Position numbers and translations under genes: made by a program. From NCBI RefSeq assembly GCF_003315415.1, contig NZ_QNSB01000006.1, forward strand, positions 186,001 to 250,000: a stretch of DNA of 64,000 bases, given 5' to 3'. This stretch comes from Brevibacterium sanguinis. Its GTDB lineage: Bacteria > Actinomycetota > Actinomycetes > Actinomycetales > Brevibacteriaceae. Below the pieces are notes generated by a model. It saw nothing but the letters and a program-made list of their open reading frames with translations. It was not told the origin of the DNA and searched no databases. Below, in pieces: positions 30,850 to 45,756 of the stretch. Numbering within the stretch: the stretch's first letter is position 1; each line of letters opens with the position of its first letter.

Positions 30850-31363
30850 TCACGAGTTCCTGTAGTCCTCGAGCGCCTTCTCGGCCATCTCGATGTCGTA
30901 CATCGCATCGGCGTAGCCCGCGATGGTCGCGTTGCCGTGCGGATACACGTGTCCGGCCTTGACCGCCGGCAGCTCCTTGAACACCGGCGAGTCCATCATC
31001 GTCTGGGTCGCCGCGTCGTAGCCTCCCCGCAGGTCCGAGGTGACGAAGATGATGTCGGCGTCGGCGAGGGCCTCGGTGCGGTTCACCGCGTCCGCGATCT
31101 CCTCGACCCGCTGGTTCCAGTTCGCCCGATCGTCTCCGCGCAGGGTGAACTGGTAGACGGGTGCGAGCTCCTCGAGCTGAGAGATCATATACGGTTCGTA
31201 GATGTTGGGGACGAGGATGAGGTCGGGGTCGACCTCGGCGAGCTTCTCGAGGTCGGGCTCCTGGTCGGCGACGACGGGGATCCCGTTGAGCTCCTCGACG
31301 CGATCGGCGGGCGAGGCTCATCATCCCCGCCGCGATCATGGTCGCGATCCTTCTCGTCGTCAT
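30850..31363 (-). pseudogene. Collapsed siderophore ABC transporter binding-protein remnant
   Basis: Pieces of a FecB/FepB-type iron-siderophore binding protein remain out of register. ATG 31363 begins a signal-like MTTRRIATMIAAGMM. After a frame break, SPADRVEELNGIPVVADQ continues through LILVPNIYEPY and APVYQFTLRGDDRANWNQRV, then DADIIFVTSDLRGG, VYPHGNATIAGYADAMYDIE. About 160 family residues remain instead of roughly 300. The lipobox and first lobe are missing, and the segment normally between the NRTEA helix and DIIFV is also gone, so I infer two deletions. It follows the siderophore-interacting gene on the same strand. Confidence 0.65.
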
Positions 31364-31429
31364 CTGCGCTCCTGTTCGTGGTCGTGTCCGTGTTCCCGGT
31401 GCTGACGAGCCGCGCGTCGTCGCGCCTCG

Positions 31430-33234
31430 TCAGCGCGTCGTCGCGATGACGGCCTTCGTGAAGCGGCCGAAGCCCCAGCCGATCTCGACGACGGCCACGT
31501 CCGCCGCGCCGAGTTCGCGCAGGGTGTCCTCGACCTCGTCGCTCGTGTACGACGCGTGACCGGTGGTCGCGAACACCGAGACGAGCTCCTCGGCCCGGTG
31601 GTCATCGGATTCCGCACCGTCGACGAAGGGCTCGACGACGACGAGGCGGGAGCTGCCGGCGAGGAGGTGGGCGAGCAGGCCTCTCCCCTCGGCCCGGGAG
31701 CGTCCGGTGAGCCCGGCGAGCAGGAGCGTGCAATCGACCTCGGGCCAGGGTTCCCGCCCGGCCGCGCAGTCGCGGCCGGGGTGTGGATGGTCCGACCGGA
31801 CGCCGGCGCCTTCCGGGTCAGTTCGGCGGCCACCTCGGCGCCGGCGTCCCCAGCCAGGGCGATGCTACGCGCCGAGGCGATCGCCTCGAGGTCGAGGAGC
31901 GGATCGAGGACGTACTGGACATGGTCGAGGGTCCGCCCGCGGTGGGCCGTGTCGAGGGCTTCGTCGCGGGCACGCAGCTGCGTCCAGGACTCGGCGGTGA
32001 GCGCCGAGGCGCGCGAGACTCTGGCAGTCCAGCCGCCGCGGATCACGTCGAGAAGGTCGACGATGGAGAAGAGGTCCGCGTTCGCGGGATCGGCCAGCGA
32101 GAGCTGCTCGGCGACGCCCTCCCCGGTGAGGACCGCACCGGTGGCGGTGTTGCGGTATTCCGCGCCGTCGCGCTCGAGGAGTCCGAGTGCGCACATCGCG
32201 GTGAGGACGACGCGGATGCCCTCGATGGGGGTGCTCGTCTCCGCGGCGATCGCCTCGGCGGTGGAGGTGCCTCCGGCCACGAGGTCGCCGATGCCGAGGG
32301 TGACTGCGACGCGGGTGATGATCGGGGGCAGGAGCTCGGTCATCTCGTGGACCTCGTCGAGCACTGCGGAGGGAGCCGCCGCCTCGGCGATGTCGGTCGG
32401 GTGGGAGGCGGAGTCGGGGGCAGGTGCCGCGGTCCGCCGCCAGTACCCGACAACCTCGATGTCCTCCTTGGGCAGTCCGAGGTCACGGCGGAGGTGGCGG
32501 CGGATGGGGGCGATCGTCATCGCCTCCCCCGCGCACCAGGCGAAGGTGCGTCCCGGGGGCAGCTGCACGTTCCTCACCGCGTCGAACAGCAGCGGGGAGT
32601 CGCCGGGGGCGAAGCCGTCGCGAATCAGCCAGTCGATCTCGACGTCGGCGGCGGTGGGGATGTCCTGGATGTCGGCGGCGGTGGGGACCTCGACGATGAT
32701 GTGCCCGCGCGTTCCCGCCGGCGCCTCCTCGAGCCAGCGTCCGACGGCCGGTAGGGCGGTCTCGTCGGCGACGAGGAGGTGGAAGTCGACGCCCTCGCTG
32801 AGTCCCGCGCAGGTCTTGGGGCCGGCGATGTGCAGCCTGTCGCCGGGGCGGGCGCGGAATGCCCAGTCGGCGGCGTGACCGGAGTCGTGGCGGACGACGT
32901 CGAACGCGAAGGACCCGGCCTCCGGATCGACGCTGCGCACGGTGTAGTCGCGGGTGAGGCTGAGGGCTTCCCGATTCCAGTTGAACCGGAACTCGTCCTG
33001 GACCCCGGTGTCGATCTCATCGACACCCGGCGGGGGAATGACGAGCTTGACGTGGTCGTCGAAGCCCTCGGAGCGGAACGCGGGCCGGTGCATCCCATTC
33101 ATCTCGCCAGCCGCCAGCTGCTCGCCGCCGACGGTGAGGCGGCGCATGTTGGGCGTGATGTCCCTGACGTCGATGACCTCGACCTCCCGCAGGACAATCG
33201 GCAGAACCTGCAGGGGGCGGGACGTACGCGGCAT
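31430..33234 (-). CDS. Siderophore-interacting protein fused to O-methyltransferase-like domain, frameshifted
   Basis: Residues 1-280 are a complete SIP flavoprotein: RDYTVRSVD (the RxYT FAD motif at 95-98), GDRLHIAGP, the FAWCAGEAMTIAPIRRHLR helix and EVVGYWRR. Such proteins reduce ferric siderophores to release iron. From about 300, DEVHEMTELLPPIITRVAVTLGIGDLVAGG starts a winged-helix dimerisation domain of O-methyltransferases, then a Rossmann part lacking the GxGxG SAM loop. Near 31783 the frame shifts by one base at CCCCGGCC; restoring a G gives DCAAGREPWPEVDCTLLLAG through EIGWGFGRFTKAVIATTR and a stop at 31430, about 600 residues. Iron regulation is implied by an IdeR box upstream. Confidence 0.7.
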
Positions 33235-33689: not shown

Positions 33690-34796
33690 ATGAGCATCGA
33701 CGTCCCCACGACCGGCCGCGCCCTGCCAGAACTGCACCCGGTCCGATTCATCGGCGCGAACGGAGAGCCCGCGGACACCCCGACCGAGGGCCTCACACCT
33801 CCGAGCCCGTCCACCCTGCTCGGCCTCTACCGGCAGATGGTCCTCGTTCGACGCTTCGAAGCCCAGGTCACGGCTCTGACGAAGCAGGGTCGGCTGGCCA
33901 CCTATCCGTCGGCCGCCGGGCAGGAGGCCACCGAGGTGGGGGCCACGACGGCGCTGGGCCCCACCGACTGGCTCTTCCCGACTTACCGTGATTCGGCCGC
34001 GCTGCTCACCCGGGGCATCCCCGTCGCCGAGATCCTCGCCGCGTTCCGCGGGGACTGGCACTGCGGCTTCAACCCGTACGAGTACCACACCGCCCCGGCC
34101 GCCACTCCCCTGGCGACGCAGACCCTGCACGCCACGGGCTTCGCGATGGCGTCGAAGCTCAAGGGCCGAGGTGAGTGCACCCTGACGATCTTCGGCGACG
34201 GGGCGAGCAGCGAGGGCGACGCCCACGAGGCCCTCAACTTCGCCTCGGTGTGGCAGACCCCGACGGTCTTCGTCCTCCAGAACAACCAGTACGCGATCTC
34301 CACTCCGCTGCGCGAGCAGTCGAACGCGACGCTGCTCGCCGATCGCGCCGCCGGCTACGGCATCCCGGGCCTGCGTGTCGACGGCAATGACGTCTCCGCG
34401 GTCTTCGCCGCGGTCAGCGCCGCCCTCGAACGCGCGCGAGCCGGTGAGGGCCCGACCCTCATCGAATGCCTCACCTATCGGATCGAGTCCCACACGAACT
34501 CCGACGATCCCACCCGCTACCGGGATTCCGCCGAGGTGGACCACTGGAAGCGCTTCGACCCGATCTCCCGGGTGGAGAAGTACCTGCGCTCCCGCGGCGT
34601 CCTCGACGACGCCGGCAACGAGGAGATCCTCGACTCCGCCGAGGCGCTCGCGAGTTCGGTGCGCGAGGCGATGAGCACTCCTCCCGACATCGACCCCACC
34701 GAGCTCTTCGACCATGTCTACGCGAAGCCCAGGCACAGCCTCGGCGAGCAGCGCAGGCGGCTCGAAGCGGAACTCGCCCAGGCAGGCCGACGATGA
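33690..34796 (+). CDS. 2-oxoacid dehydrogenase E1 component, alpha subunit
   Basis: A 368-residue thiamine-diphosphate subunit: YRQMVLVRRFEAQVTALTKQG opens the domain, the ThDP/Mg motif GDGASSEGDAHEALNFASVW starts at residue 169 with the Asn in LQNNQYAIS, and the phosphorylation-loop-like YRIESHTNSDDPTRYR is near the C-terminus. It pairs with the next gene to decarboxylate pyruvate or a branched-chain 2-oxoacid; sequence alone does not separate the two, though the alpha2beta2 form fits branched-chain type in actinobacteria. The start ATG 33690 is provisional. It overlaps the beta gene by four bases. Confidence 0.88.
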   Translation: MSIDVPTTGRALPELHPVRFIGANGEPADTPTEGLTPPSPSTLLGLYRQMVLVRRFEAQVTALTKQGRLATYPSAAGQEATEVGATTALGPTDWLFPTYRDSAALLTRGIPVAEILAAFRGDWHCGFNPYEYHTAPAATPLATQTLHATGFAMASKLKGRGECTLTIFGDGASSEGDAHEALNFASVWQTPTVFVLQNNQYAISTPLREQSNATLLADRAAGYGIPGLRVDGNDVSAVFAAVSAALERARAGEGPTLIECLTYRIESHTNSDDPTRYRDSAEVDHWKRFDPISRVEKYLRSRGVLDDAGNEEILDSAEALASSVREAMSTPPDIDPTELFDHVYAKPRHSLGEQRRRLEAELAQAGRR

Positions 34797-35812
34797 CGGT
34801 CACCGCCCTGACCTCGGCCGATCAGGAGCCGGCCCCCGCCCCGGTGACGATGGCGAAGGCGCTCAACCAAGCGCTGCACGACGCCCTGGCCGAGGACGAG
34901 AACGTCGTCGTCTACGGAGAGGACGTCGGCCGCCTCGGCGGGGTCTTCCGGGTCACCGACGGCCTGCGCGCGGAGTTCGGGGCCGAACGGGTCTGGGATT
35001 CACCACTCGCCGAGTCGGGAATCGTCGGCACCGCCGTGGGGATGGCGATGGCAGGGATGCGGCCCGTCGTCGAGATGCAGTTCGACGCCTACGCCTACCC
35101 CGCGTTCGAGCAGATCGTGTCGCAGGTCGCGAAGATGCGCAATCGGACGAAGGGCCGGGTGAGCCTGCCGATGACGATCCGGATCCCCTGCGCCGGCGAC
35201 ATCGGCGGTGTCGAGCACCATTCGGATTCCTCGGAGGCCTACTGGTGTGCGACGCCCGGCCTCACCGTCGTCACCCCCTCGAACCCGGCCGACGCCTACT
35301 CGATGCTGCGGGAGTCGATCGCCTGCGACGACCCGGTCATCGTCATGGAGCCGAAGTCCCGGTACTGGATGAAGGAGACGCTCAGCCTGCCCGTGACCAC
35401 CGCGCCGATGGACCGGGCGGTCGTCGTCCGCGAGGGCGCCGACGTGTCCCTGCTCGCCTACGGGCCGACCGTCCGCACTGCCCTCGAGGCCGCCGAGGCC
35501 GGTGCCGAGCACGGGCTGTCCGTCGAGGTCGTCGACCTCCGGTCGCTCTCCCCCTTCGACGACGCGACCGTCTCGGAGTCCGTGCGCAAGACCTCGCGCG
35601 CGGCGGTCATCCATGAGGCCGCGCAGTTCGGGGGCTTCGGCGCCGAGGTGGCCGCCCGGGTGACCGAACGCAACTTCGTCCATCTCGCCGCCCCGATCCT
35701 GCGGATCACCGGCTTCGACACCCCGTACCCGTCACCGAAGCTCGAGGAGCACTACCTGCCGACACCCGATCGCGTCCTCGACGCCCTCGAGACCTGGGAC
35801 TGGGAGCTGTGA
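34793..35812 (+). CDS. 2-oxoacid dehydrogenase E1 component, beta subunit
   Basis: A 339-residue transketolase-like beta subunit: MAKALNQALHDALAEDENVVVYGEDVGRLGGVFRVT, then GMRPVVEMQFDAYAYPAFEQIVSQVAKMR, and the C-terminal half with VEVVDLRSLSPFDDATV. It forms the E1 heterotetramer with the upstream alpha subunit, supplying part of the ThDP site. The start is the ATG at 34793 inside the ATGA overlap; a longer frame upstream is a shadow of the alpha gene. The TGA stop overlaps the E2 start by one base. Confidence 0.9.
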   Translation: MTVTALTSADQEPAPAPVTMAKALNQALHDALAEDENVVVYGEDVGRLGGVFRVTDGLRAEFGAERVWDSPLAESGIVGTAVGMAMAGMRPVVEMQFDAYAYPAFEQIVSQVAKMRNRTKGRVSLPMTIRIPCAGDIGGVEHHSDSSEAYWCATPGLTVVTPSNPADAYSMLRESIACDDPVIVMEPKSRYWMKETLSLPVTTAPMDRAVVVREGADVSLLAYGPTVRTALEAAEAGAEHGLSVEVVDLRSLSPFDDATVSESVRKTSRAAVIHEAAQFGGFGAEVAARVTERNFVHLAAPILRITGFDTPYPSPKLEEHYLPTPDRVLDALETWDWEL

Positions 35813-37419
35813 TGAGCGCCGATCCCCACCGCGACGATCGCGACACCGAGCACTCGGCCGACACCCAGGGCACCGAGCGTTCTGGTGATGCCCGTGGCAC
35901 CGAGCAGGGAAGGATCCGCGAGTTCCATCTGCCCGACCTCGGTGAGGGCCTCACCGAGGCGGAGCTCATCTCCTGGAAGGTCGCCGTGGGCGACGAGGTC
36001 ACGGTCGATCAGCATGTCGTCGAGGTCGAGTCGGCGAAGAGCGTCGTCGAACTGCCCTCCCCGTTCGCCGGCCGCATCGCCGGCCTCCACGCCCGCCCGG
36101 GTGACACCGTCTCCGCCGGTCAGGTGCTCTTCTCCGTCGCCGAGGCGGACAGTGCCGAGGCGAGCGGAGGGGGAAGCGGGGAGGAAGTCGGGGCGAGTGT
36201 CGCAGACGCCGCCGAGGGAAGCGGCGGGCGCGCGGACGCCGAGGCCCGCCAGGCCAACCTCATCGGCTACGGGACCCGGGAGCGCACCGGGCGGTCGAGC
36301 CGGTCGCGGTCGTTCGGCTCGAGGACGGCCGGGCTCTCACCTGTTCCCGACCTGCCAGGGGAGGCCCCCGCGCAGGCCCCGAGCGGCGCGCTCCCACAGG
36401 ATCCGTCCGAGGCGCCCGCACAGGATCCGACCGACACCCATGGACGGGACTCCGCCTCGGCGAGGGTGTCCCCGGTCATCTCCCCCATCGTGCGCAGGCT
36501 CGCGAAGGACCACCGGCTGAGCGCCAAGCACCTGCACGGGTCCGGTCCCGGCGGGCTCGTCACCCGCGCCGATGTCCTCGCCGCCATCGACGAGAGGCCG
36601 GGAGCGGCCAGCGGTGCCGCGCGCGAACAGGCACCAGGAGAGACTCCGTCAGGCGCGCAACCCGACGCTGTCGCCCGCGAACGCGTGCCGGGAGAGACCT
36701 CACCCGCGGCGGGGACGCCCGCCGACGACCACGACACCCGCACCCCGCTCACCGGTCTGCGCAAGGTCGTCGCCGAGCGCCTGTCCCGGTCGCGGCAGGA
36801 GATCCCCGAGGCGACGATCTGGCTCGACGTCGATGCCACCGAGCTGCTCGCGACCAAGCGCGCCCTCGAGGCACGGACCGGGGAGAAGTACTCGCTGCTG
36901 TCCCTCGTCGCCAGGTTCGTCGTCGCCGGACTGAAGAAGCATCCGATCCTCAACTCGTCCGTCGATGTCGAAGCCGGTGAGATCGTCACCCATCGCGACA
37001 TCAACCTCGGTCTGGCGGCGCAGACGCCGCGCGGTCTCATGGTGCCCGTCGTCCACGGCGCCGGCGACATGAGCCTGCGGCAGCTGCGTGACGCGGTGAG
37101 CGAGACCGTCGGGAGGGCGAGCACGGGGACCTTCGCACCGCAGGAGCTGTCCGGCGGGACGTTCACCCTCAACAACTACGGGGTGTTCGGCGTCGACGGA
37201 TCCGCGCCGATCATCAACCTCCCCGAGGTCGCGATGCTCGGCATGGGCCGGATCAAGGAACGGCCCTGGGTCGTCGACGGTCAGCTCACGGTCCGCCAGG
37301 TCATGTACCTGTCCTTCGTCTTCGACCACCGGGTCTGCGACGGCGCCGAGCCGAGCGCGTTCCTCGGCTTCGTCGCCGACTGCATCGAGAACCCGGTCTC
37401 CCTGCTGCCCGAGGTGTGA
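35812..37419 (+). CDS. Dihydrolipoamide acyltransferase (E2)
   Basis: A 535-residue E2 with all three modules. One lipoyl domain (about residues 30-110) carries the modified lysine in VEVESAKSVVELP (Lys76). A peripheral-subunit-binding domain follows (VSPIVRRLAKDHRLSAKHLHGSGPGGLVTRADV, about 220-255), then the catalytic domain with FDHRVCDG (His506, Asp510). Linkers are Ala/Pro/Gln-rich repeats. It transfers the acyl group from E1 to CoA. No E3 (lipoamide dehydrogenase) gene is nearby, so E3 must come from elsewhere. It converges on the acyl-CoA-dehydrogenase-like gene. Confidence 0.9.
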   Translation: MSADPHRDDRDTEHSADTQGTERSGDARGTEQGRIREFHLPDLGEGLTEAELISWKVAVGDEVTVDQHVVEVESAKSVVELPSPFAGRIAGLHARPGDTVSAGQVLFSVAEADSAEASGGGSGEEVGASVADAAEGSGGRADAEARQANLIGYGTRERTGRSSRSRSFGSRTAGLSPVPDLPGEAPAQAPSGALPQDPSEAPAQDPTDTHGRDSASARVSPVISPIVRRLAKDHRLSAKHLHGSGPGGLVTRADVLAAIDERPGAASGAAREQAPGETPSGAQPDAVARERVPGETSPAAGTPADDHDTRTPLTGLRKVVAERLSRSRQEIPEATIWLDVDATELLATKRALEARTGEKYSLLSLVARFVVAGLKKHPILNSSVDVEAGEIVTHRDINLGLAAQTPRGLMVPVVHGAGDMSLRQLRDAVSETVGRASTGTFAPQELSGGTFTLNNYGVFGVDGSAPIINLPEVAMLGMGRIKERPWVVDGQLTVRQVMYLSFVFDHRVCDGAEPSAFLGFVADCIENPVSLLPEV

Positions 37420-37453: not shown

Positions 37454-38635
37454 TCAGTCGTCGAGAAGCGCGGCGGCGTACATCGGGCGGGCGGCGTCGA
37501 CGCTCGGGGGATGGAACAGGCCTGCGGTGGCATCCCGGTGGAGGCGACTGAGCTCGTGCGAACTGTCGAATCCGCTTCCGCCGGTGCACATGAGAGCGGT
37601 CTCCGCCGCCCGCCGGGCCGCCTCCGAGGCCTTGATCCTCGCCCCGACGAGCCGCAGCGGCCATCCGGCCCCATGATCGACGAGTTCGTCGAAGTCCCTC
37701 GTGTAGGCGTCGAGCATCGCCGGCACACCGAGGTAATCGAGATGCGCATCGGCCAACCGCGCCCTGGACTCCGGCACCTCCGCGAAGGTGGTCCCGGACT
37801 TCGCGGACTTCCGTCTGCGCAGACCCTGAGCACCGAGCTCGAGGGCCCGAGCCGCGACACCGGCGTAGACGGAGGCGATGAGGAGCTGGAAGTTGCTGGT
37901 GATCGCGAAGGTCAGCAGGTCGGGGTGCCTGCCGGCGGGGATGAGGCGGGACACGCGCTCGGGACGCATCGGGACCGAGTCGAGGATCGTCGCCCGCGAC
38001 TGCGAGGCGCGCATCCCGAGGACATCCCATCGATCCGACACGGTGATGCCCGGCGCATCGCGGTCGATGAAGCCGTAGATCAGCTCCCCGGGCTCATCGC
38101 CCGTGTCCGAGCCGGCGACGAGCCCGTGGACGATCAGCCGAGTCCACACGGGCGAGAGCGAGGTGAAGATCTTCACCCCGGTCAGCAGCCAGCCGCCGTC
38201 GTCGCCCGGTTCGGCGACGGTGGTCGAGCCCTGGAGCACCCAGTCGTTCGAGGGCTCGGAGATCCCGAACGCGAAGATCTCCCCGGCCATGACATCGTCG
38301 AGCACCCAGTTGAGCGAATCGTCGCCGCGGTCGTTCAGCGCCTTGACGACACCCGTGCACATGAGGTGCATGTTGATCGCGAGCGCGGTCGCCGGTGCCG
38401 CCGAGGCGAGGCGCTGCTGGAGCCGGGAGACCTCGTGGAGGCTCAGCCCCGGTCCCCCGTGCGAGCTCGGGACGAACAGCTGCAGGTAGCCCATCGCCCT
38501 GAGCTCCTCGAGGTCCTCGTCGAAGAAGCGGTTCTCCCGGTCGTAGACCGCCGCGCGGTCCCGGAACCGGTCGAGCACCTCGGTGGGCAGGTACTGCTGC
38601 GCCAGATGCGCGTGGCGGGCTTCTCTGTCGGTCAC
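37454..38635 (-). CDS. Acyl-CoA dehydrogenase family flavoprotein
   Basis: A 393-residue ACAD-fold protein: RAMGYLQLFVPSSHGGPGLSLHEV, FAFGISEPSNDW and WLLTGVKIFTSLSPVW (flavin/substrate loops), then MRASQSRATILDSVPM. The C-terminus has GGSGFDSSHELSRLHRDATAGLFHPPS instead of the YEGT loop that carries the usual catalytic Glu, so it may be a monooxygenase-like or otherwise modified member. GTG 38635 has AAGGAG five bases upstream. It is the last gene of the ligase-ketosynthase-ACAD operon, 75 bases after the ketosynthase stop. Confidence 0.8.
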   Translation of the reverse strand: MTDREARHAHLAQQYLPTEVLDRFRDRAAVYDRENRFFDEDLEELRAMGYLQLFVPSSHGGPGLSLHEVSRLQQRLASAAPATALAINMHLMCTGVVKALNDRGDDSLNWVLDDVMAGEIFAFGISEPSNDWVLQGSTTVAEPGDDGGWLLTGVKIFTSLSPVWTRLIVHGLVAGSDTGDEPGELIYGFIDRDAPGITVSDRWDVLGMRASQSRATILDSVPMRPERVSRLIPAGRHPDLLTFAITSNFQLLIASVYAGVAARALELGAQGLRRRKSAKSGTTFAEVPESRARLADAHLDYLGVPAMLDAYTRDFDELVDHGAGWPLRLVGARIKASEAARRAAETALMCTGGSGFDSSHELSRLHRDATAGLFHPPSVDAARPMYAAALLDD

Positions 38636-38709
38636 GGGATCTCCTTGCTCGTCGTCGCGGTGTTTCGTGGGGCGCCGGCCCTCATCGCCCCCTGTCGGTT
38701 CCCCGGCCA

Positions 38710-40116
38710 TCATCGCTCCCGGTCGGGGCGGCGGAGGATGATCGCCCCGTTGTGCCCGCCGAAGCCGAACGAGGTCGACAGGACGGTGTCGATTCCGGTG
38801 TCGGGACCGAGCTCGCGGGCGGCGGTGACGAAGTCCCAGCCGTCGAACTCGGGAGCGTCGAGGTTGATCGTCGGCGGCAGCACCTGGTCCCGCAGCGTCC
38901 GGGCGGCGATGACCGCTTCGACGACGCCGGAGGCTCCGAGCAGGTGGCCGGTGCTCGACTTCGTCGCGGACAGCGGGATCGTTCGCGCCTGCCGGCCGAG
39001 CGCCGAGTCGAAGGCGGCGAGCTCGGCCGCGTCGCCGGCGGGCGTGCCGGTCGCATGGGCGTTGATGTGGTCGATGTCGTCGGGGCCGAGGCCGGCGTCG
39101 GCGAGGCAGATGCGCACGGCCTCGGCTGCCCCGCGCCCCTCGGGGTGCGGAGTGGTGGGATGGTGCGCGTCGCCGGCCGCCCCGAAGCCGGCGAGTTTGG
39201 CAAGCGCCTCGACGCCGCGGGCACGGGCGGACTCGGCCGACTCGAGGAGGATCGCCGCTGCACCCTGGCTCATGACGAAACCGGACCGAGCGTGGTCGAA
39301 GGGGCGGCACGCATCGTGCGGAGAGTCCTCATAGCCGGTGGCGAGCGCCCTCATGTTCGCGTTCGACGCGAGGTTGACCGGGTTGAGGCAGTCCTCCATG
39401 CCGACGACGAGCACGGCGTCGGCATAGCCGTGGCGGATGCGACGCAGTCCCTCGCCGAGGCCGATGGCCCCGCTCGCGCAGGTCGCGGAGACTCCCTGGG
39501 CCGGACCGTGGATGCCGTGGCGCTGGCTGAGCAGCGCGGCGGCGGAGTCCGGAGCGCCGTGGATGGCGAGGGTCAGCGGCACGGAGCGCGGCCCGCCCTC
39601 GAGCAGCGCCCGCGTGGCCTGCTGCATCGCGTCGACCGGTCCCGAACCGGTGGCGGCGATGACGGCGATGCGGGTGCTCTCCCACGGCAGTTCCGCCCAG
39701 GCTGCGCCCGTGGCCGTCGCCGAGTCGCGGCCGGTGGTCGACGCCGAAGCCCGGGTCGTCCCCGGGGCCGTGTCCGCCGTCCTCACGCCGGCCTCGGCGA
39801 GTGCCTGATCTGCCGCGGCGATCGCCCACTGCTGGACCGGGCTGAGCCGGCGGGCCAGTGCCTTCGGCAGCACGGCCTCGGCGTCGAATCCGCTCACCCG
39901 ACCGCCGATGCGCACCGGCAGGTTGGCGAACTCCTCCCCGTCGAGACGTTCGATGGCGCTGCGGCCGCTGCTCACCGCGGCCCACAGGGAGTCGACGTCG
40001 AGTCCGCTCGGGGTGATCGCGCCCATGCCGGTGATGACCACTGCCCGCTCGTCCGGATTCCGCCTGCCCGCCGGATTCCGCACGTCTGCCGCCATCGCCG
40101 CCTCCGTCGCGCTCAC
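38710..40116 (-). CDS. Beta-ketoacyl-ACP synthase (FabF/KAS II type)
   Basis: A 468-residue condensing enzyme with the full Cys-His-His set: Cys213 in VSATCASGAIGL, His354 in NAHATGTPAGD and His391 in KSSTGHLLGASG. A Thr/Ala/Ser-rich insertion at about residues 115-145 is absent from housekeeping FabF. It extends acyl chains on an acyl-carrier protein; no ACP, KR or malonyltransferase is adjacent, so it is likely a specialised synthase in a small pathway. ATG 40116 overlaps the ligase stop (ATGA), linking the two genes. Confidence 0.85.
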   Translation of the reverse strand: MSATEAAMAADVRNPAGRRNPDERAVVITGMGAITPSGLDVDSLWAAVSSGRSAIERLDGEEFANLPVRIGGRVSGFDAEAVLPKALARRLSPVQQWAIAAADQALAEAGVRTADTAPGTTRASASTTGRDSATATGAAWAELPWESTRIAVIAATGSGPVDAMQQATRALLEGGPRSVPLTLAIHGAPDSAAALLSQRHGIHGPAQGVSATCASGAIGLGEGLRRIRHGYADAVLVVGMEDCLNPVNLASNANMRALATGYEDSPHDACRPFDHARSGFVMSQGAAAILLESAESARARGVEALAKLAGFGAAGDAHHPTTPHPEGRGAAEAVRICLADAGLGPDDIDHINAHATGTPAGDAAELAAFDSALGRQARTIPLSATKSSTGHLLGASGVVEAVIAARTLRDQVLPPTINLDAPEFDGWDFVTAARELGPDTGIDTVLSTSFGFGGHNGAIILRRPDRER

Positions 40117-41624
40117 AGTCGCTCTCCTCGTCCCTGCATGATCAGCTCAACCGTCTCCGCCCGGCGGATCTTCCCGCCCACCGTGCGCGGGAGCCGGTCG
40201 AGGCGGTAGACGCGTCGGGGAACGAACTGCGGGGCGAGGTGGGCGCGAGCGTGGGAGAGGACGTCCTCCTTGACGACGTCCTCCTCGACGGCGAGCGCGA
40301 TGACGCTGCCCAGCCGCGGGTCGTCGAGGGAGACCGCGCAGACCTCGCCGAGGCGCTCCCAGCCGTCGAAGGCACGTTCGACCTCCGGAAGCGAGACCTT
40401 GTGCCCGCCGGTGACCGCGATGTCGCCGGCGCGCCCGGCCAGCTGCAGCATCCCGTCCTCGATCCGCCCCTGGTCGTGCACCGTCGCCCACCCGTCGGGA
40501 CCCCTGAGCGTCGCGTCGGTCGTCGCGGAGAGGTAGCCGTACGAGCAGGCCGCGGCGCGCACCCACAGTGTGCCGAGCTCTCCGTCGGCCACGGGCCGGC
40601 CGTCCTCGTCGCGGATCTCGACGTCGATCGTGTCGTACACGGTGATCCAGGTGCCGTCCCCGGCACGACTGTCGCCGATGAATCCGATCTCCGCGGCCCC
40701 GTAGTAGCTGATCAGCCGGGTGTGGGGCAGCACCTCGCCGAGGCGGTCGCGGATGCTGCCGGGCAGGTTCGCCCCGCCCGTGACGACGAGGTCGAGACCG
40801 GAGAACCGTGCGGGTTCACGGCGGGCGGCATCGGCCAGGGCCCGGACGACGGCGGGGACCGCGACGACCCGGGTGATCCCCTCGTCCCGGATCCGCCGGC
40901 TCATCTCGAGCGGTGCGAAGGAGTCGGCGACATGGACGCTGCCCCCGGTCGCCAGGCATTCGATGACGGCGTAGAGGGTGAGGCTGTAGGAGATCGGCCC
41001 GGGCGCCAGCGTGGCGACACCGGGAAGCGGCTCGAGGTGGGCGGCGGAGACGGCGACGTTCGCCCGGTACTGCTCGCGCGTCTTGAGGAACGCCTTGGGG
41101 TCACTCGTCGTGCCGGAGGAGAAGAGCATGAGGAAGGGCTCGGCGCCGTCGCGCACGCTCGGGTGCTCGGTCCCGGCGACCGCGACGACGGCCTCGCGGC
41201 GCCGGAACTCCGCCGGGGTGATGACGGTCCCGGTCCAGCCCTGGGCGGCGAGCGCCTCGGCGAGGTCATCCGAGTCGCTGACGACGACGCCGATCCCGGT
41301 GCGGGCGATGACCGAGACCCGGTGGTCGAGGGGCCAGCGGGGGTCGATCGCGGCCGAGACCGCTCGGAAGCCCGCGAGGCCGGAGAGGATCCGAGCCGTG
41401 TCGAACGCCGATTCGAGGCTGACGGCGGTGATGGGGATGCCCGCGGTCTCCCGGGCAGGTGCGGGAGCCTCGGACTGCGCCGCGTGCAGGGCGGAGACGA
41501 CGGCGAACATGCGCCGGGAGTCGGCGACGAGCTCGCGATAGGTCAGACGATTCTCGGGCCCGACGATGGCAGGCTGATCGGGGTCGCGCTGCGCGACCTC
41601 GAGGATCGACTCGGTGATCGGCAC
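40113..41624 (-). CDS. AMP-dependent acyl-CoA/acyl-AMP ligase
   Basis: A 503-residue adenylate-forming enzyme: P-loop MLFSSGTTSDPKAFLKT, A5 SYYGAAEIGFIGD, then DQGRIEDGMLQLAGRAGDIAVTGGHKVSLPEVE, and a C-terminal lysine in RTVGGKIRRAE. The usual TGD motif appears as VHDQG, a recognised variant in aryl- and fatty-acid ligases. It would load an acyl group onto CoA or a carrier protein. It starts a three-gene operon with a ketosynthase and an ACAD-like protein. The ATG at 41624 has no strong Shine-Dalgarno within view. Confidence 0.82.
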   Translation of the reverse strand: MPITESILEVAQRDPDQPAIVGPENRLTYRELVADSRRMFAVVSALHAAQSEAPAPARETAGIPITAVSLESAFDTARILSGLAGFRAVSAAIDPRWPLDHRVSVIARTGIGVVVSDSDDLAEALAAQGWTGTVITPAEFRRREAVVAVAGTEHPSVRDGAEPFLMLFSSGTTSDPKAFLKTREQYRANVAVSAAHLEPLPGVATLAPGPISYSLTLYAVIECLATGGSVHVADSFAPLEMSRRIRDEGITRVVAVPAVVRALADAARREPARFSGLDLVVTGGANLPGSIRDRLGEVLPHTRLISYYGAAEIGFIGDSRAGDGTWITVYDTIDVEIRDEDGRPVADGELGTLWVRAAACSYGYLSATTDATLRGPDGWATVHDQGRIEDGMLQLAGRAGDIAVTGGHKVSLPEVERAFDGWERLGEVCAVSLDDPRLGSVIALAVEEDVVKEDVLSHARAHLAPQFVPRRVYRLDRLPRTVGGKIRRAETVELIMQGRGERL

Positions 41625-43595: not shown

Positions 43596-44762
43596 TCACA
43601 CTGCGGGGGCGGCCACGCTCGCTCCCCGGCTCTCGAAGGTGCGGGCGGCCGTGCCGAAGCACATCGTCATGCCGATCCCCGAGGTGACCGAGACGGCACG
43701 CGTGTGCTCGTCGATGTCCTCCATGAGCAGGGATGTGTGCGGGCTCGAGGCGTAGATGCCCTGCCAGCGCTGCCGGATCCGCAGCGGCGCCCCGATGATC
43801 CCGGAGATCTCCTCGATGATCCGGTCGGTGATCCACTCCTCCTGGAACGGCGGCATCGTGATGTCGTAGCTGTGGCTGTCGCCGAGGAGCACGGTCCCGT
43901 CGGGACGCATCGTGAACATGATGTTCGCGCCGAGTTCGACGAGTTCGGGAGTGCTCCGGGCGATCGCCTCCGCCAGCTCGCGATGGCCCGGCATCGCCGT
44001 GAACCCGTCGTATCGGGTCAGTGAGGTGCCGGTGAGGATCGCCGACTCCGTCGTCAACGAGTCCGGGGCCGGGGCCAGGGCCATCTGCAGAGAGCACCGG
44101 GTCACCTCGTAGCGGGCAGCGAGCTCGGGCTGGAGGTGGTCGAGGTCGTGTCCGACGCAGACGATGACCCTCTCGGCCTCGAACTCCCCCGCCGAGGTGA
44201 GCGCCCGTCCTCCGCCCACGGCCCCGACGCTGACGCCGAAGAGGACATCGGCGCGCGGCTGCGCGGCGATCCACTCGGCGATGGCCCCGGCAGTGGTGCG
44301 CGGGTCGACCCTGAGGTCCGCCGGCAGGAAGGCCCCGCCGAGGAACCCGGAGTCGTCGGCCCGCCCGAGCCTGCCGGCCACCTCGGCCGAGGTGAGGAGG
44401 CGGACCGCGTCGTCACCGCGGTCGTCGCGGAACTGTTCGACCACGGCCATCTCCTCCGGGCTGCGGGCGACCACGACGGCACCGGCCTCGGGGGCCCAGA
44501 ATCCGACGTCGCGCGCGCAGTCGAGCCAGCCCTGGCGGGAGGTGAAGGCCATGTCGCTGAGGTCCCTGCCCTGGCCGGTGATGCAGCAGTGGCCGAAGTT
44601 GCGGATCGAGGCCCCGTTGGGCCGGTGGTCGCGTTCGACGACCCGCACGCTCAGTCCCTGGCGCAGCGCCTCGTAGGCGTGTGCCAGTCCGACGATTCCG
44701 GCCCCGATGACGAGGACGTCGGTCTTCTCGTGCCTGCCCTCGGCAATTCGCAGAGTGGTCAT
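43596..44762 (-). CDS. FAD-dependent amine oxidoreductase (TIGR03364-like)
   Basis: A 388-residue DAO-type flavoprotein: VLVIGAGIVGLAHAYEALRQG binds ADP at about residues 16-36, followed by RPNGASIRNFGHCCITGQG, and a C-terminal SVTSGIGMTMCFGTAA. This fits the TIGR03364 family, often encoded beside phosphonate-degradation genes. Together with a phosphonoacetaldehyde dehydrogenase and phosphonoacetate hydrolase nearby, oxidation of 2-aminoethylphosphonate or its N-methyl form to phosphonoacetaldehyde is a well-supported inference. It follows the LysR gene on the same strand by about 80 bases. Confidence 0.8.
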   Translation of the reverse strand: MTTLRIAEGRHEKTDVLVIGAGIVGLAHAYEALRQGLSVRVVERDHRPNGASIRNFGHCCITGQGRDLSDMAFTSRQGWLDCARDVGFWAPEAGAVVVARSPEEMAVVEQFRDDRGDDAVRLLTSAEVAGRLGRADDSGFLGGAFLPADLRVDPRTTAGAIAEWIAAQPRADVLFGVSVGAVGGGRALTSAGEFEAERVIVCVGHDLDHLQPELAARYEVTRCSLQMALAPAPDSLTTESAILTGTSLTRYDGFTAMPGHRELAEAIARSTPELVELGANIMFTMRPDGTVLLGDSHSYDITMPPFQEEWITDRIIEEISGIIGAPLRIRQRWQGIYASSPHTSLLMEDIDEHTRAVSVTSGIGMTMCFGTAARTFESRGASVAAPAV

Positions 44763-44844: not shown

Positions 44845-45756
44845 TCAGGTCGGCCAGGACTCGAGGTCCTGGAGGTGCCGGCGGAACTCCCGTTCCAGGG
44901 GGCTGTGGACGTAGCTTCTCGTGCTCAGGAGGTAGACCTCGCGGGGGGCGGGTTCCGGGACCACCCGGATCTCGGCCAGGCGTCCCTCCCCGAGGTCCCG
45001 GTCGACGACGTGCTCGGAGATCAGGGTGATGCCGAGTCCTGCCCGCGCGGCCTCCTTCGCCGCCTCCGCGGTCCAGATGGTGCATCTCCTCGCCTCGGGC
45101 AGGGCCCAGATGCTCAGCGCCCGTTCCTGCCCCTCCCGTGTCGAGGAGCCCGGTTCCCGCAGGAGGAAGCACTCCCCGGACAGCTCCCAGGGTTCGACCG
45201 TCCTCCCGGCCATGGGGTGGTGGGCGCCGGCGACGAGGCGCAGCCGTTCCGAGAGCAGGGAGGTGACCTCGATCTCGTCGTCGACGACTGTGCCGAACGT
45301 CAGCCCGAGCCCGGTCCTGCCCTCGAGGATCGACTGGAGGACGGCCTCGGAGTTGCCGACGACGATCTCGACCTGGGCGTCGTCGCGCCCGCCGAGGAAG
45401 TCCCCGATGACGCGGGGGAGCAGATGCGAGCCCAGGGTGGTCGTGCCCGCAACGGACAGCCGGCGGTCGATGCTCCCCGTCGCGGCCGCGATCTCATCGT
45501 TGATCCCCGACAGCGTGTGCAGCAGCTCCTTCGCCCGCTGCGAGAACAGCTTCCCCGCCTCGGTGGGCGTGGCACCCCAGGGGCCGCGCTCGAACAGCTG
45601 GGCGCCGAGGGACTTCTCGAGGCTGCGGATATGCCCGGAGACCGACGGCTGGGAGACGAAGAGGTTCTTCGCCGTCTTCGACAGCGATCCGGTCTCGACC
45701 ACGGACAGGAAGATCCGCAGACTGAGCACATTGAGGTCCATTCCCACAATGACCAT
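44845..45756 (-). CDS. LysR-family transcriptional regulator
   Basis: A 303-residue LysR protein: LNVLSLRIFLSVVETGSLSKTAKNLFVSQPSVSGHIRSLEKSLGAQLFERG holds the helix-turn-helix at about residues 8-55; the rest is a periplasmic-binding-type effector domain. ATG 45756 has GGAGG nine bases upstream; ATG 45741 would lose five residues. It lies between the dehydrogenase and oxidase genes of the phosphonate set, so it probably controls that operon in response to a phosphonate or intermediate. Confidence 0.85.
   Translation of the reverse strand: MVIVGMDLNVLSLRIFLSVVETGSLSKTAKNLFVSQPSVSGHIRSLEKSLGAQLFERGPWGATPTEAGKLFSQRAKELLHTLSGINDEIAAATGSIDRRLSVAGTTTLGSHLLPRVIGDFLGGRDDAQVEIVVGNSEAVLQSILEGRTGLGLTFGTVVDDEIEVTSLLSERLRLVAGAHHPMAGRTVEPWELSGECFLLREPGSSTREGQERALSIWALPEARRCTIWTAEAAKEAARAGLGITLISEHVVDRDLGEGRLAEIRVVPEPAPREVYLLSTRSYVHSPLEREFRRHLQDLESWPT

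Follow-up and report, generated by a model that had tools for sequence, protein, structure and literature searches.

A ligase-ketosynthase-flavoenzyme gene trio of Brevibacterium and related actinobacteria that may activate and extend a carboxylic acid

The window analyzed here is a 64,000-nucleotide stretch (contig C6:186001-250000) of a 3.77-Mb Brevibacterium genome, with a G+C content of 68.9%. On its minus strand lie three consecutive genes, referred to here as the trio, which encode an AMP-forming acyl ligase, a FabF-type ketosynthase (KS), and a flavoenzyme of the acyl-CoA dehydrogenase (ACAD) fold. Their positions, and that of the operon on which they converge, are as follows.

40113..41624, minus strand: AMP-forming acyl ligase (ANL superfamily), first gene of the trio; 503 aa, GTG start; PF00501, PF13193
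38710..40116, minus strand: FabF-type KS; 468 aa; compared with TIGR03150 and modeled with AlphaFold2 (AF2)
37454..38635, minus strand: ACAD-fold flavoenzyme without the catalytic Glu, oxygenase-like; 393 aa; alternative start ATG 38710
33690..37419, plus strand: convergent 2-oxoacid dehydrogenase operon, E1 alpha/E1 beta/E2; PF00676, PF02779/PF02780, PF00198; judged to lie outside the module

The ligase and KS open reading frames (ORFs) share 4 bp (40113-40116). This overlap had been pointed out in an earlier sequence-only reading of the stretch, whose range of 37454-41624 spans all three genes. The longest frame of the third gene starts at 39310, within the KS gene. We prefer the GTG at 38635, which is preceded by AAGGAG, as the flavoenzyme start because the consensus of 47 aligned orthologues opens with MTDRE at that point; the ATG at 38710, which overlaps the KS stop codon, is a possible other start. 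No acyl carrier protein (ACP), ketoreductase or transferase is encoded beside the trio, in agreement with the sequence-only reading, and a motif pattern for carrier proteins found none in the called proteins of fewer than 130 aa around 79 related loci. All three enzyme families are already known, and the nearest relatives of the trio genes are from Brevibacterium.

The ligase matches PF00501 (5.7e-35; 121.3 bits against a cut-off of 29.9) and PF13193 (6.6e-7), and its alignment contains the SSGTT..PK loop and the lysine of the C-terminal GGKIRR motif, as expected of an ANL acyl ligase. The top solved relative by sequence is 4-chlorobenzoate-CoA ligase (1t5d; 7.1e-25), with which it shares the core motifs in a match over nearly the full length. 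The two differ where PLYHVVGFF of 1t5d aligns to PISYSLTLY in the window ligase, and therefore the acid that it activates is probably not that of 1t5d. An amino acid is a less likely substrate, because the ligase has no Asp at the position that we take to bind the amino group in the adenylation domains of non-ribosomal peptide synthetases.

The KS belongs to the ketoacyl-synthase family (ketoacyl-synt matches of 7.5e-38 and 1.6e-33). Cys213, His354, Lys386, and His391 are invariant across 50 aligned sequences and correspond to the Cys-His-His plus Lys set of FabF (KAS II). Its AF2 model has a mean predicted local distance difference test (pLDDT) score of 88.7, with a poorly predicted insert at about residues 113-147, and adopts the FabF fold; the top solved match is Pseudomonas aeruginosa FabF, with 39% identity and a template-modeling score (TMt) of 0.94. 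Fold, catalytic set, and GFGG motif are thus shared with FabF, but the trio KS is a second copy in the genome (39% identity to the resident FabF), has no adjoining ACP, falls below the TIGR03150 cut-off, and reads GFGGHN where the aligned P. aeruginosa FabF reads GFGGTN. It is FabF-like by sequence and is not filed as FabF. Residues and model together indicate that the enzyme is likely active. The host's type II fatty acid synthase (FAS II) cluster lies elsewhere, on contig C5, where the order FabD-FabH-ACP-FabF was assigned by eye and the ACP by PF00550. The trio does not resemble a type II polyketide cluster, which would comprise a KS, a chain-length factor, and an ACP: there is only one KS, and no ACP-like motif was found in called proteins of fewer than 130 aa around the 79 loci.

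The flavoenzyme matches four acyl-CoA dehydrogenase domains in Pfam (1.7e-9 to 5e-7), but has lost the dehydrogenase base. The canonical catalytic Glu aligns with Pro376, and none of 10 rows, or of 18 in a wider set, has Glu in this column, which bears out the earlier description of an ACAD-fold protein without it. In the 18 rows, His90 and His375 are invariant, Asn130 is present in 17 (Asp once), and position 159 is Ser in 16 and Thr in 2; at these four columns and at 376, taken in sequence order, the single canonical dehydrogenase reads P, A, A, G, and E. His90, Asn130, Ser159, and His375, which are polar flavin-site residues of the oxygenase type, are common to two SfnB-like plasmid rows that are only about 20% identical to the window flavoenzyme, so that the matching of columns depends on the alignment. 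The same residues would correspond to polar residues of DszC; one study gives DszC His391 a role (PMC11134501).

KijD3 leads the phmmer matches (1.1e-32), and nitrososynthases are among the top phmmer and Foldseek matches. The AF2 model (mean pLDDT 90.3) has as its top solved Foldseek matches 5z8t, 5gj7, KijD3, and DnmZ, the best of which are about 26-28% identical. Structure comparison, run on a VIA-align list outside which other families may match, gave a Z of 43.6 for 5z8t (annotated as a flavin-containing monooxygenase; root-mean-square deviation 2.6, 376 residues aligned), 41.8 for 5gj7, and 40.2 for KijD3. Among NCBIfam models the flavoenzyme matches SfnB (7.8e-26; 90.9 bits against 430.9), DszC (4.4e-21; 75.1 against 850), and 3-sulfinopropanoyl-CoA desulfinase (6e-19), in each case below the cut-off. 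With the group D flavin monooxygenases (SfnB, DszC, KijD3/DnmZ), which provide its leading matches by sequence and by Foldseek, the protein has in common an ACAD fold that lacks the catalytic Glu and, with the SfnB-like plasmid rows, the His/Asn/Ser/His positions; unlike them, it is far below the SfnB and DszC cut-offs, shows low identity to its best solved matches, and has no flavin reductase gene within the trio. On balance it looks more like an ACAD-fold flavin oxygenase, on the KijD3 and SfnB/DszC side, than like a dehydrogenase.

Synteny in relatives, proposed by the sequence-only reading as a check, revealed a real conserved cluster, above chance. A ligase match is present in 33 of 37 genomes of the genus, the four without one being G004, G017, G025, and G035; elsewhere in the order, 1 of 22 genomes has a match, a weak one (34% identity). 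A class-wide draw yielded ligase matches at E<=1e-55 in 3/394 genomes, own included; class-wide searches scored only 3 or 4 candidates per genome, and weaker relatives may be missed. The full trio was found in 18 of 19 Brevibacterium stretches, the other (L043) being without the flavoenzyme. Scanning named genomes, with an Agrococcus ligase used for confirmation, gave 218 pattern matches, 149 of which are relatives; the best 80 defined 79 loci in Brevibacterium, Agrococcus, Microbacterium, Pseudoclavibacter, Leucobacter, Cryobacterium, Gulosibacter, Arthrobacter rhombi, Garicola, and metagenome-assembled genomes. The KS follows the ligase in 77/79, the remaining two contigs ending before it, and was called only as a piece in four of the 77 (L122, 238 aa; L145, L146, and L150, at contig ends). 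The 4-bp overlap recurs in 49/77 by called starts. The flavoenzyme follows the KS in 61/79 loci; of the 18 without it, 5 are cut by contig ends, one is L162 (Cryobacterium), and 12 form a group, clade A, of Agrococcus, Pseudoclavibacter, Cryobacterium Y11, and Microbacterium MPKO10 loci with the ligase-KS pair only. Across the genus, 54 of 57 genomes have a flavoenzyme match, which reaches just 46% in G004 and G025, and 3 have none.

In a 42-row ligase tree the Brevibacterium copies split into three groups interspersed with Garicola, Leucobacter, Microbacterium, and other genera: one groups with Garicola, and another is nested within a set of Leucobacter, Agrococcus casei, and Microbacterium sequences. 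The 6 of 12 clade A rows that were included cluster together (99/98). Outermost stands L061, whose branch is very long and whose position is uncertain. Well-supported groups of the KS tree agree with the ligase tree, with many forks open. Because Brevibacterium copies sit in three places of the ligase tree, the trio probably moves between genera as one unit by horizontal transfer.

Solo relatives of the flavoenzyme, about 40-50% identical, occur in other genera; in the class, 32/394 genomes (own included) have one match each at E<=1e-40. One solo relative, in L096, adjoins an unrelated acyl-CoA ligase (1.9e-5), and another (L099 7232-9541) directly adjoins the lipoate-protein ligase LplAB (536 bits, cut-off 550). 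A link to lipoate was rejected, as BLAST found no lipoate ligase gene in the proteins called around the 79 trio loci. Plasmid homologues about 44% identical were found among the 60 listed of 624 matching records: in sulfonate islands of pTiC58 and of a Variovorax plasmid, and two more in unannotated records. These two islands (L213 1995-10173 and L214 6601-9152, respectively) each encode two ACAD-fold proteins, one SfnB-like and one trio-like, adjacent in Variovorax, which perhaps form a paired oxygenase system.

The convergent 2-oxoacid dehydrogenase operon (E1 alpha from 33690, E1 beta from 34793, E2 to 37419) stops 34 bp short of the trio. The sequence-only reading described this arrangement correctly and proposed that the operon could supply acyl-CoA starters, a role that its distribution does not favor. 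Some part of the dehydrogenase lies inside the fetched stretch in 12/19 Brevibacterium loci, and E2 was found in 17/79 named loci, 16 of them Brevibacterium; outside this genus, with flanks of at most 8 kb considered, the count is 1/47 (a Microbacterium). Five Brevibacterium loci whose other flanks have changed (L038, L039, L040, L042, and L043) did not show it, and neither did L030 and L032, in which it may be situated past the fetched stretch. We therefore rejected it as a stable partner of the trio: it is not seen where flanks change and is nearly confined to Brevibacterium.

What recurs across genera instead is an ABC importer homologous to MetQ/MetI, linked in 19/79 loci of five genera (12/12 in clade A, 7/67 in the others). 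In clade A the ligase-KS pair faces the importer in all 12 loci, while the outer flanks mostly differ between genera; in L161 the importer genes precede the ligase in the same direction, as they do in L040 save for one opposed small ORF. MetQ-, MetI-, and MetN-like proteins adjoin as in the MetNIQ methionine importers, but the MetN-like protein of L130 (240 aa) matches just 19-222 of 343 and is not a full-length MetN, which would have a regulatory (NIL) domain at its C-terminus, and the linked MetQ scores below both cut-offs (L130, 138.4 bits against 374 and 133.7 against 228.85; L161, 142.4 and 136.5) and is about 35% identical to the matches in most Brevibacterium genomes. Its rows have an Arg and an Asn in common with three ordinary MetQ rows, and aligned clade A rows have Phe for the His of a QH stretch; these residues are not decisive for identity as a methionine importer. 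Judged by sequence, the linked MetQ is a separate subfamily. At least 73% identity to it was seen in 7/57 genus genomes: in five the gene adjoins the ligase, in G447 it shares a contig with the flavoenzyme, about 3 kb away, and in G015 it lies about 280 kb from the ligase. The other 50 genus genomes gave matches at 29-38% in 48 and none in 2. Import would be at most a variant of the module.

Two candidates for control were rejected. No riboswitch was indicated, with no Rfam match in eight loci or in window positions 28000-50000, and no shared operator emerged upstream of the ligase: only promoter-like -10 elements (TATACT, TAGACT) recur in 79 upstream stretches (the window and 78 loci), where 9-mers were shared by up to 11 stretches against 7 in shuffles, 7-mers by 22 against 21, and no dyad by more than 6. 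In several Agrococcus and Pseudoclavibacter loci TATACT or TAGACT stands a few bases before the start codon, as in leaderless transcripts.

Some neighboring genes were recorded in their own right. A 624-aa ORF on the minus strand of the window (31360-33234) combines SIP and FAD_binding_9 domains of a siderophore-interacting flavoprotein with an O-methyltransferase dimerisation domain, has no NCBIfam match, and is either an unusual fusion or two joined frames. Also on the minus strand, 43596-44762 encodes an FAD-dependent oxidoreductase above the TIGR03364 cut-off (403 bits against 285) that adjoins genes at 44845 and 45790. In one Brevibacterium, CRISPR-Cas-like subunit genes, recognized by eye, lie upstream of the trio (L039 1-3411). 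In L043 (2949-5904), from Brevibacterium G009, the gene directly upstream of the ligase encodes an acyl-CoA dehydrogenase of the canonical type, Glu motif included.

Our preferred reading, held tentatively and at somewhat less than even confidence, is that the trio is a mobile acid-activating, chain-extending condensing module that works on borrowed FAS II, with a later flavin oxidation and perhaps with import of the acid. The ligase would adenylate a carboxylic acid and transfer the resulting acyl group onto CoA or a carrier protein; next, the FabF-like KS would take up this group and condense it with malonyl-ACP from the cell's FAS II; and in the larger clade, Brevibacterium included, the flavoenzyme would then oxygenate or otherwise oxidize the product. 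In the clade without the flavoenzyme, the un-oxidized product would be made or used, and in several genera the acid or a precursor may be brought in by the dedicated MetQ-subfamily transporter. Borrowing of malonyl-ACP from the host in this way would account for the lack of ACP, reductase, and acyltransferase genes in the cluster. Activation by the ligase followed by condensation by the KS is the simplest scheme that covers the constant pairing of the two genes, the absence of an ACP, and the complete catalytic residues, with the flavoenzyme as the add-on of one clade, and to this core we attach the same guarded confidence.

Several observations weigh against this reading. The KS scores 378.3 bits against the NCBIfam equivalog TIGR03150, short of its cut-off of 493.75, and condensation, as opposed to transfer of acyl groups, is only a predicted activity. 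Neither a carrier protein nor a flavin reductase is encoded with the trio. The top NCBIfam match of the flavoenzyme is FadE16, named as an acyl-CoA dehydrogenase (7.7e-27; 94.5 bits against 600), just ahead of SfnB, and the fold does not separate oxygenases from dehydrogenases: medium- and short-chain acyl-CoA dehydrogenases reach a Z of about 41, against 43.6 for the best oxygenase. Of the 31 other class genomes with solo relatives, 23 were examined, and none (0/23) has a KS or ligase match at E<=1e-5. Conversely, L162 lacks the flavoenzyme though it has sequence to spare, and L043 keeps the ligase and KS without it in a genome, G009, that has no flavoenzyme match at 1e-40. The importer is not beside the window trio and was not seen in 60/79 loci.

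The reading in which the KS is an acyltransferase, so that the module would join the ligase-activated acid to another small molecule, is improbable. The KS matches the KAS-like acyltransferase subunit AmcF among its NCBIfam hits (174 bits, cut-off 325), a score far below that for FabF, and the His, His, and Lys residues needed in FabF for decarboxylative condensation are all invariant here as His354, His391, and Lys386. Scavenging or processing of an organosulfur acid, which we regard as unlikely yet worth keeping in view, would have the importer take in the acid, the ligase activate it, the flavoenzyme act like SfnB/DszC relatives in oxygenating it or cleaving a C-S bond, and the KS serve in auxiliary acyl transfer. 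This would fit the sub-threshold SfnB, DszC, and desulfinase matches and the MetQ/NlpA family of the linked importer. The plasmid islands fit as well: that of pTiC58 holds two LLM oxidoreductases and an aliphatic sulfonate ABC transporter, that of Variovorax holds msuE, three LLM oxidoreductases, and an aryl-sulfate sulfotransferase, and the SfnB-like proteins in these records score 269 and 271 bits (below 430.9). An arylsulfatase-like family also occurs near the trio in 6/79 loci (one member scanned, under its cut-off). However, the solo relatives mostly adjoin genes without an evident sulfur role (among the neighbors scanned, which were only some), a Deinococcus plasmid homologue has no annotated sulfur genes around it, and the Rfam scan gave no match. 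Moreover, clade A keeps the KS in all 12 loci that lack the flavoenzyme, and sulfur scavenging, which would account for the flavoenzyme and the importer, leaves this invariant KS unexplained.

The sequence-only reading had proposed a cluster for a branched or aryl ketide, here taken as secreted, fed by the adjacent 2-oxoacid dehydrogenase. A ligase and a KS would be the minimal set for a starter-plus-malonyl product, and 8/79 loci, from Microbacterium and Gulosibacter, have a gene for a DHA2-family transporter close to the trio (one member scanned, above the TIGR00711 cut-off). The distribution of the dehydrogenase described above speaks against this, as does the main text of a survey of 98 Brevibacterium genomes, in which whole-word counts of ketosynthase, acyl-CoA, ketoacyl, and AMP-dependent are 0 (PMC10588199); we consider it quite unlikely. 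Supply of a pimelate-type biotin precursor was suggested by the yhfT-yhfS ligase-thiolase pairs of the BirA regulon of Firmicutes, described in two sources as BirA-regulated with putative functions (PMC6391492, PMC7235819), in which a ligase is likewise paired with a thiolase-superfamily enzyme and a transporter is nearby in some genomes. A relative of the ligase (35%) in G259 comes after genes like BioM, BioN, and BioY and is followed by a thiolase-like gene; this row (L061 6884-11983), read by eye, begins with a thioesterase-like gene and resembles a biotin-linked ligase-thiolase pair. The trio, in contrast, has a ketosynthase and no thiolase, and shows no co-occurrence with bioB: 10/33 genus genomes that carry the cluster, among them that of the window, lack a bioB above the cut-off, and 4/4 without the cluster have one. 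The window ligase is only the third-best NF005797 scorer in its own genome, far under the cut-off, and no BioY match was found among the proteins called in the 79 loci. On the bioB pattern and the weak NF005797 score we rejected this role, which is very improbable.

A bolder reading, which we offer as speculation and at low probability, is a mobile FAS II 'plug-in' in which importer, ligase, and dedicated KS would salvage a short acid from outside the cell, one that possibly bears sulfur, by extending it by two carbons on host ACP, with the flavin oxygenase as optional tailoring. An orthologous cluster with a known primary-metabolic role, which the sequence-only reading named as the finding that would overturn it, was not found, and a carrier-less trio of this kind was not found described in the limited selection of literature searched. 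The trio is a near-genus-wide and apparently horizontally moving cluster in actinobacteria of cheese, skin, and soil, and the missing carrier protein of its own may be why cluster finders overlook it. The clades with and without the flavoenzyme provide a natural comparison, and solving the trio would reveal a small product, new and shared among Brevibacterium, or else a new route of acid salvage via fatty acid synthase.

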